Shown here in pieces: positions 1 through 10,087 of a DNA stretch of 64,000 bases (the stretch's first letter is position 1; each line of letters starts with the position of its first letter). The stretch comes from Patescibacteria group bacterium (GTDB lineage Bacteria; Patescibacteriota; Minisyncoccia; UBA6257; 2-01-FULL-56-20). The translations under genes were made by a program, and so were the position numbers. Under the pieces are notes generated by a model, which was not told where the DNA came from, made no database searches, and saw nothing but the letters and a program-made list of their open reading frames with translations. The DNA is taken from contig JAGWKM010000001.1 of assembly GCA_028865305.1 (NCBI GenBank), positions 1 through 64,000 on the forward strand, written 5' to 3'.

Positions 1-230
1 ATGTTTGCCGCCAAACATCCATATTTCTTCAGGCTATTACGAATTATATTGTTTGCCGCCAAACATCATTTTTTTGCAATTTCAAGTGTTTGCCGCCAAA
101 CATCTCCTTTCTTATATTTATATGTTTGCCGCCAAACATCCATATTTCTTCAGGCTATTACGAATTATATTGTTTGCCGCCAAACATCCGTTTATTTTTT
201 TCTTAAATATATTGTTTGCCGCCAAACATC
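1..230. repeat. Array of six 18-bp palindromic repeats (TGTTTGCCGCCAAACATC) separated by AT-rich 18-30 bp spacers; may continue upstream of the window
   Basis: Identical copies at 2-19, 50-67, 87-104, 123-140, 171-188, 213-230; arms ATGTTTG/CAAACAT; segment 1-67 is duplicated at 122-188. Confidence 0.95.
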
Positions 231-266
231 GTCCTTAATTATTAATATGAAATTCTAAACAAATCG

Positions 267-650
267 ATGAATTCTAATTTAGAGGTTGGTAATATCGGTG
301 AAGATTTGGCTTGTAAATATCTGATTAGCCATAAGTTTAAAATTCTTTTTAGAAATTTTAAGGAGAAATTTGATGAAATTGATATAATTTCTAAATCTTC
401 TGATAGAACACTTGTTTTCGTTGAGGTAAAAACTCTGCGTGGATTTCAAGATGGTTCTCTTGGTCTTATTCCTGAAGACCAATTAACTTTTCAAAAATTT
501 CATAAAATCAGTCGTGCTTGCGCATTGTTTGCCGCCAAACATTCTAATTTGATAAATCCGAAAAAAGGCTGGCGCATAGACCTCATAGCAATCAATCTAG
601 GGGAAGATAGAACCAATTTTCAAATCAGACATTATGAGAATGTTTTGTAA
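267..650 (+). CDS. YraN/UPF0102-family endonuclease-like protein
   Basis: GEDLACKYL...FDEIDII...LVFVEVKT...GWRIDLIAI matches the YraN motif pattern. Confidence 0.85.
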   Translation: MNSNLEVGNIGEDLACKYLISHKFKILFRNFKEKFDEIDIISKSSDRTLVFVEVKTLRGFQDGSLGLIPEDQLTFQKFHKISRACALFAAKHSNLINPKKGWRIDLIAINLGEDRTNFQIRHYENVL

Positions 651-2966: not shown

Positions 2967-3887
2967 CTAGCCAATAGCTTGGAATCGCTTTGAAACAATT
3001 TGTATCGGCGTCCGCAAAGCAATGCCCAGGTGAAGCCGTTCGTGATTGTAGTATCGCAGATATTTCCGGAGGGCGCAATTGATCTTCCGGACATCGGCGG
3101 GCATGGCATCAACGCACTCTTCTTGAAGCGTGCGGTTGAACCGTTCGATGTGTGCGTTGTCGTTGGGTTTCCCGATCAGTGTATAGCGGTGCTTCTTTCG
3201 TACCTGGGCCACGAACCATCGCCCGAACTCCGGACCATGGTCCGATTGAAGCATGACGAAATGGAATGGCGCGTTGCGCTGCGCTTCCGCAATGAACCGC
3301 AGCGTCGTCCTGCCGTTCATCCGGGCATATGCCCTAGCGTATGCCCATCGCGAGCAGACATCGAGGAGCACGAAAATGTACAGCCTCTTTTTATCATCGA
3401 TCATCCGGTGGATGGTATCAATTTGCACGAGATCGCCTGGTTTTTCAACGATTGGCCGCGGTACCGGCGGATGATACCGCTTCCACGGGCTGCGCTTTTT
3501 CATGAGCCCCGCCCGGTCGATCGTGCGGCGCACCGAGTTCAACGAGACCGTGATCTCTTGGTTCGCCAGCTCTTGATACACGACTTCGCTCGTGCGTTTC
3601 GTCCGTTCCCGGATCGCAATGATCTTCTCAATGATGCCCCGCTGCAATTGTTTCGGATGATGGTGCGGGCGGGAGGATCGGGTCGGGATGCGCCACCAAC
3701 CGCCCGTTGGGTCCTTGGCACACCATTTCACGATGGCGCTCTGGGTGAAGCCGAAGTGGCGCGCGACCTTTCTAGTGCTCCATCCCCGATACTTCACGAG
3801 CCGTACCGCCTCCATGCGGATCTTCGGCATCTGAGGGTTATTGGTGTACCTGGCTTGGATTGTCCCTTTTTCGGGAGGTGATTCCAA
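2967..3887 (-). CDS. IS481-like DDE (rve) transposase
   Basis: N-terminal HTH, QIDTIHRMIDDKKRLYIFVLLDVCSRWAYA and QSDHGPEF ... NDNAHIERFNRTLQEE catalytic regions. Confidence 0.9.
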   Translation of the reverse strand: MESPPEKGTIQARYTNNPQMPKIRMEAVRLVKYRGWSTRKVARHFGFTQSAIVKWCAKDPTGGWWRIPTRSSRPHHHPKQLQRGIIEKIIAIRERTKRTSEVVYQELANQEITVSLNSVRRTIDRAGLMKKRSPWKRYHPPVPRPIVEKPGDLVQIDTIHRMIDDKKRLYIFVLLDVCSRWAYARAYARMNGRTTLRFIAEAQRNAPFHFVMLQSDHGPEFGRWFVAQVRKKHRYTLIGKPNDNAHIERFNRTLQEECVDAMPADVRKINCALRKYLRYYNHERLHLGIALRTPIQIVSKRFQAIG

Positions 3888-8963: not shown

Positions 8964-9428
8964 CTACCCGTTCAACTCCTCTTTCCTTATTTCTCTTAAG
9001 TGCGCCTGTTTTTTGAGCGCCTCGCGTTTGTCTGATTTTTTCTTGCCGCGGCCAAGGCCGAGTTTTATTTTTATGAAATGATTTTTTAGGTGTGCTTCGA
9101 GCGGCACGAGCACACTGCCTTTTTCCTGAAGCGCTCCGGTCAGTTCCTTTATTTCATTTTTAGTCAGCAAAAGCCGGCGGGACCGATCTTCTTCATAGTT
9201 GCTTGGCGTGTTTTTGGGTTGGTATGGCGGGATGTGCGAGTTTACCAAGAATGCTTCACCCCCGCGGATCAAAATCCGCGCGCCGGCGATCTGAAATTTT
9301 CCTTCTTTCACGCTTTTTACTTCGTACCCGTAGAGTTCGATGCCGGCTTCATATGTCTCAATTATCGAATAATCGAATTGCGCGCGCCGGTTTTCGGCGA
9401 GGATTTTCGATTCCGTTATTTTTTTCAT
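8964..9428 (-). CDS. smpB: SsrA-binding protein SmpB
   Basis: AENRRAQFDYSIIETYEAGIELYGYEVKSVKEGK...; GLGRGKKKSDKRE tail. Confidence 0.97.
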   Translation of the reverse strand: MKKITESKILAENRRAQFDYSIIETYEAGIELYGYEVKSVKEGKFQIAGARILIRGGEAFLVNSHIPPYQPKNTPSNYEEDRSRRLLLTKNEIKELTGALQEKGSVLVPLEAHLKNHFIKIKLGLGRGKKKSDKREALKKQAHLREIRKEELNG

Positions 9429-10087
9429 GCCGTTGCTTTTCCTTCTGACAGGGCAAAGTCATTTGGGAATAGCAGCTGCGTTATTCGCCAGATGCCGTAA
9501 ACAATGAACGGGGCCGCGAACACGTCGATTGAATAGTGTACGTGCGCGAGCAAAACAACAGCTCCGAAGAATATCGTGAGTCCAATAAATATCCGTCTCC
9601 ATGCTTTATTATTCCAGAAAATGAGGGCCGTAAGAAACGGGAGACTGGTGTGGCCAGAGAAGAAAAAGTTGCCCTGGAATGTAAGCAGGTGGTACAAGCT
9701 CCAGCCGGGGTTTTCGGGACCCGGATTTAAACTCGTGGGATAAAGTCCGATGTGGGTCAAACTTGTAAAAAACGCCCGAATAATTATGAAGAGTGCGGCG
9801 GCTTTGATGCCAAAAAGTAGGTGGTTTGGATATAAAATCAAAAGGAGCCAGAAAAGCACCCAAATCAATATGCCTCCCGAAACCACCAAAAAATCAAGAT
9901 TAACGACTGGCAGATGGTCTAAAAAGAGATCTCCGGCGGGTGCTGCTCCTGCTGATTGGACGGAAGAATAATGGCCAACGTTTATTTGGATAAAAAGCGC
10001 TAGGACGATCAGAAAAATTCCCATGTAAAGCGATTGTTTTCTCGCTTGAGTCCAAAATCCGGCCTGGCCGCTTTTGAAAATATTCAT
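9425..10087 (-). CDS. PAP2-like membrane phosphatase
   Basis: FFSGHTSLPFL ... HVHYSIDVFAAP motifs in a polytopic protein. Confidence 0.75.
   Translation of the reverse strand: MNIFKSGQAGFWTQARKQSLYMGIFLIVLALFIQINVGHYSSVQSAGAAPAGDLFLDHLPVVNLDFLVVSGGILIWVLFWLLLILYPNHLLFGIKAAALFIIIRAFFTSLTHIGLYPTSLNPGPENPGWSLYHLLTFQGNFFFSGHTSLPFLTALIFWNNKAWRRIFIGLTIFFGAVVLLAHVHYSIDVFAAPFIVYGIWRITQLLFPNDFALSEGKATA

Follow-up and report, generated by a model that had tools for sequence, protein, structure and literature searches.

A probable lineage-specific parS cluster beside yraN at the predicted replication origin of a Patescibacteria group bacterium

The window analysed here, a stretch of 64,000 nucleotides from a Patescibacteria group bacterium, has its first position at an end of contig C379 and opens with an array of short repeats that lies upstream of a yraN gene. 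Exact copies of TGTTTGCCGCCAAACA(T) occur seven times, six upstream of yraN and a seventh inside it, and on recount all copies that the sequence-only reading had described there proved exact; its 17-bp unit did not hold up, as the repeat is a 16-bp near-perfect dyad (7/8 pairs) and thus not fully symmetric. Spacers between the units measure 20 to 32 bp, and two of them are duplicated. The features are the following, with no strand assigned to the sites or to the duplication:

2..17: parS-like site 1, TGTTTGCCGCCAAACA; the array runs on leftward into contig C261
50..65: parS-like site 2, exact copy
87..102: parS-like site 3, exact copy
123..138: parS-like site 4, exact copy
171..186: parS-like site 5, exact copy
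213..228: parS-like site 6, exact copy
526..541: parS-like site 7, in yraN, codons for L-F-A-A-K-H; the same codons form a site in 5 other genomes
1..196: tandem duplication within the array, 1-75 again at 122-196, 96% identical
267..650, plus strand: yraN (UPF0102, predicted nuclease family), start codon at 267; origin neighbour

Chance is excluded as a source of the repeat, given 14 strand matches to the 18-mer where shuffles predict 0.2 and 10 matches to the 16-bp frame in 81.5 kb where an order-2 Markov model predicts 0.03, and the internal duplication indicates that part of the array expanded in tandem. The earlier statement that the rest of the window holds no further copies was borne out by a window scan, and in the whole 2-Mb assembly there is a single other exact copy, right at the beginning of contig C261; the 10 exact matches to the wider pattern TGTTTNNCGNNAAACA in this assembly likewise all fall at the yraN/C261 array locus. 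Since the terminal 53 bp of reverse-complemented C261 are identical to the window start, the window opens partway through the array, where the repeat interrupted the assembly. Besides the overlap copy, C261 adds three degenerate upstream copies (two TGTTTGTCGCCAAACA, one TGTTTGCCACCAAACA), which would bring the full array to at least 9 upstream copies, provided that C261 joins at window position 1. The flank on C261 carries a traR/dksA-like gene and yifB, both pointing away from the array, and the order traR/yifB, array, yraN is common to most of the window's family. Within the presumed oriC, C261 (L038) also holds an inverted repeat of about 40 bp (CCGGCAAAAGTTTAGCAAGCCGAATTTGATGACCGTCTTC and its complement, at 302-345 and 405-445), in the stretch that separates the array from the traR-like gene; an Rfam search of C261 gave no match. 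Further into the window, a 306-aa ORF at 2967-3887 on the minus strand looks by eye like an integrase-core (IS481/IS3-like) transposase. The assembly (G000) comprises 388 contigs totalling 1.99 Mb, with contamination of 8%, and parAB, dnaA and the array each lie on a different contig of this bin. Given its fragmentation, its contamination and its size of 2.0 Mb, compared with mostly 0.4-1.2 Mb in relatives, the bin may combine two or more strains or organisms.

The repeat retains the frame of the chromosomal centromere site parS, TGTTT-NN-CG-NN-AAACA, with all seven window copies exact at the 12 frame positions, and departs from canonical parS only at positions 6, 7, 10 and 11, where CA..TG has become GC..CC. 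The chromosomal consensus TGTTNCACGTGAAACA (PMC7022226, PMC7333895) is a descriptive average rather than a functional definition of parS, and the window sites differ from it at 4/16 bases; this mismatch, together with the exact canonical sites that relatives carry in the same slot, leads us to call the window site a parS variant and not an ordinary member. Those relatives belong to the same order but to other families, and their clusters of canonical parS (TGTTTCACGTGAAACA) lie upstream of yraN like the array described here. Among 151 relatives, a search with TGTTTGNCGCCAAACA found sites just upstream of yraN in 3 genomes and inside yraN in a fourth, and the wider pattern TGTTTNNCGNNAAACA matched in 83, usually with several sites per cluster (0-1 for the reversed control). 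At least one frame match is present at 50 of 87 yraN loci (22/30 in the window's family, 28/57 in other families), and 17 of the 57 loci from other families have a canonical site. Against a parS identity, fifty-nine relatives with ParB lack an exact frame match, and four genomes in which no ParB was detected (G079, G089, G124, G148) nevertheless have at least two sites each, though among these G079 contains 72 kb of N, and two more are less than 85% complete. The array resembles known chromosomal parS in its dyad and frame, in the clustering of several copies at the origin, in its syntenic place and in belonging to a genome with a parAB operon, and differs in the four changed positions, its incomplete symmetry, the lack of the canonical half-site throughout the window's family and the location of one site within yraN codons.

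The parA and parB genes of the window genome are adjacent, as an operon, on contig C244, and matches to this ParB were found in 138/151 genomes; its nearest solved structures are Spo0J and ParB proteins. Among the parS contacts known from Caulobacter ParB (PMC7383237), it retains Q162, G170, K171, S172, R173, N178 and R204, with G201 to S as the sole exception, and A184 is replaced by D, in a numbering carried over from Caulobacter by motif alignment and hence inferential. R173 reads the guanine at site position 2, and R201 of Noc reads the base equivalent to position 7 (PMC7383237); in the window's sites the former base is invariant and the latter is one of those changed. That a member of the ParB family can change its site by a few bases is known from the ParB/Noc specificity switch, which involves residues 173, 179, 184 and 201 (PMC7383237). 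In that case, however, the sites of Noc alter the outer G at position 2 as well as position 7, whereas the system described here keeps position 2 and R173, alters positions 6-7 and uses the parA-linked ParB rather than a Noc paralogue. Across the relatives, the variant family is marked by D184 combined with H or N at 202, and most canonical genomes by Q202. A simple code from ParB residue to half-site was rejected on account of its exceptions (GCCGGC occurs alongside canonical-type residues in G074 and G098, and H202 is found in several canonical genomes) and because the pattern is confounded with phylogeny.

The position of the replication origin is clearest in two relatives with single-contig assemblies. 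In G023 (840,672 bp) the circular GC-skew minimum at 9,269 lies about 0.5 kb from the array at 9,782-10,051, and in G079 (561,860 bp, 72 kb of N) the minimum at 124,771 falls between the two canonical parS sites. All seven genomes with array and dnaA on one contig have them no more than 44 kb apart, at distances of about 3.7 (G058), 5.7 (G079), 22 (G123), 28 (G021), 29 (G023, assuming a circular contig), 40 (G112) and 44 kb (G074). Reading away from the array, GC skew in the window is positive in 13/16 blocks, as expected if the window starts at an origin, and is mixed on C261. With the origin located in G023 and G079, oriC would also lie at the array in the window's own fragmented assembly.

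The origin regions of these two relatives contain further sequence elements. Positions 9531-9770 of G023 (L236) hold six TTCGGCAA where 0.07 are expected, 3 of the genome's 36 TTATCCACA/TTATCCCCA and all 3 of its TGTTTGTCAG, and a TGTTTGTCAG-like sequence occurs twice on C261 near position 250; these are possible, so far undescribed origin motifs and do not generalise to all 87 loci. CGGCAA is strong in both G023 and G079 and was dropped as a general origin motif, being unenriched across 87 yraN-upstream stretches relative to yraN itself. In the yraN gene of G079 (L296, 5100-5300), an in-frame insertion contains the DnaA-box-like sequence TTATCCACA together with several copies of CGGCAA, which gives the impression that oriC extends into the gene; the same kind of split is seen in the yraN matches of G057, G060, G061, G110 and G115. 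In G004 (L071), an ORF in the origin region between yraN and the parS-like sites looks by eye like a LAGLIDADG-type endonuclease.

Canonical parS in the same slot, a parAB operon, the skew minimum and the proximity of dnaA together point to a ParABS centromere at oriC, and on this sequence evidence the array is very probably a chromosomal parS cluster in a diverged, lineage-specific version that would be bound by the predicted ParB. We infer that the array binds ParB and serves in chromosome segregation. In the proposed mechanism, it would lie at oriC between yraN and the divergent traR/dksA-like gene with yifB, and each 16-bp palindrome would act as a nucleation site for a dimer of ParB, the product of the parAB operon at another place in the genome. 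Once loaded there with CTP, ParB would slide onto the adjoining DNA and recruit SMC, and ParA would move ParB so that the origins separate first; the CTP, SMC and ParA steps are drawn from studied ParABS systems (PMC7333895). The in-gene copy would be one more parS-like site.

This copy bears on a different proposal of the sequence-only reading, namely that yraN is a target of the repeat or that the YraN protein recognises it, be it as operator or operator decoy, as hairpin or in self-recognition by the nuclease. The array does adjoin yraN in many relatives, and in six of 87 yraN genes, from three families (G000, G017, G021, G022, G064, G078), these codons match the frame exactly, compared with just one gene with a match elsewhere within yraN; in five of the six genomes the in-gene site shares its half-site with the genome's own array. 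Yet a conserved in-gene site in so few genes speaks against such a role, as do the canonical parS sites that occupy the slot in many relatives, the canonical parS elsewhere in the phylum that does not adjoin yraN, and arrays that occur although yraN is missing (G010), lies at a distance of 17 kb (G040) or is found on a different contig (G041, G069, G094). We therefore regard a functional link to YraN as very unlikely and attribute the neighbourhood to yraN sitting at the origin in this class. The same reading was right that the copy need not be an insertion: the FAAKH columns are ungapped when 87 YraN proteins are aligned, and similar residues stand there in relatives that lack the DNA repeat, so the copy is a product of point mutation in a favourable coding context and no insertion. 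The site probably formed because the YraN F-[AVS]-[AG]-K-H codons were already close to the parS frame, and a Rickettsia-type palindromic element inserted in yraN was rejected given that no residues are added relative to the homologues.

If the repeats were instead iterons, bound by a replication initiator or by some other factor acting at the origin, their likeness to parS would be secondary. The array at the GC-skew minimum in two relatives and the DnaA-box-like sequence beside it in G023 and G079 would fit such a role, but the DnaA-box-like sequences are separate elements, exact canonical parS fills the same slot in relatives, and we know of no initiator that binds canonical parS; we consider this explanation improbable, if slightly less so than a link to YraN. 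Least credible of all are a guide-RNA array of the CRISPR or TIGR kind and a mobile palindromic repeat of the REP/RAYT or Rickettsia type. Short near-palindromic units with differing spacers and one copy in a gene may recall such elements, but the spacers range from 20 to 32 bp with two of them duplicated, there are no copies elsewhere in 2 Mb, and the in-gene copy sits in ungapped alignment columns. No Nop-domain (Tas) protein was detected in the genome, with no match to PF01798 of TIGR-Tas in G000, and a CRISPR- or TIGR-type array was rejected on this ground and by the spacer pattern.

Returning to the array as a parS cluster, its divergence is a property of the whole family. The canonical CA is found in 172/236 upstream half-sites of other families versus 0/152 in the window's family, and a whole-genome search detected no canonical parS in any of the family's 38 genomes. 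With look-alike flanks removed, half-sites agree at 55% within genomes versus 23% between them, a level reached by 0/2000 permutations, and shared ancestry within arrays (duplication, conversion) could add to this agreement. In a ParB tree, the window's family forms one supported clade (98/96) with variant sites only, and the canonical/variant label requires at least three changes. The literature describes parS as strongly conserved among bacteria (PMC7022226). In a bacteria-wide contig scan for paired sites, whose pattern allowed any bases at the variable positions, 75/80 loci among the matches listed were purely canonical (CACGTG); these loci come mostly from other phyla, with one Parcubacteria contig, matching G094, among the matches listed. 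Within a sample of the phylum, canonical parS was present in 23/286 genomes, so parS may have diverged repeatedly beyond the window's family. A literature search, with subscription journals mostly outside it, found no paper describing parS in Patescibacteria or Parcubacteria.

What is new is that a family lacks the canonical half-site, that its sites are more alike within than between genomes, and that six genomes share a parS-like site at identical yraN codons. More tentatively, and at somewhat less than even chances, ParB and centromere may have co-evolved in this Parcubacteria-type family to a new and still shifting specificity, in which the canonical half-site was abandoned for half-sites of each lineage's own (mainly AG, GT, GC, CG and GG at positions 6-7), ParB residues 184, 201 and 202 moved along, and the protein-constrained parS in yraN may have helped to seed new half-sites. 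One origin slot with canonical parS in some families, derived versions in another and known ParB sequences for each would provide a natural series for following joint change in a centromere and the protein that reads it, and the array would mark both the replication origin and the centromere in a mostly uncultured group of bacteria.
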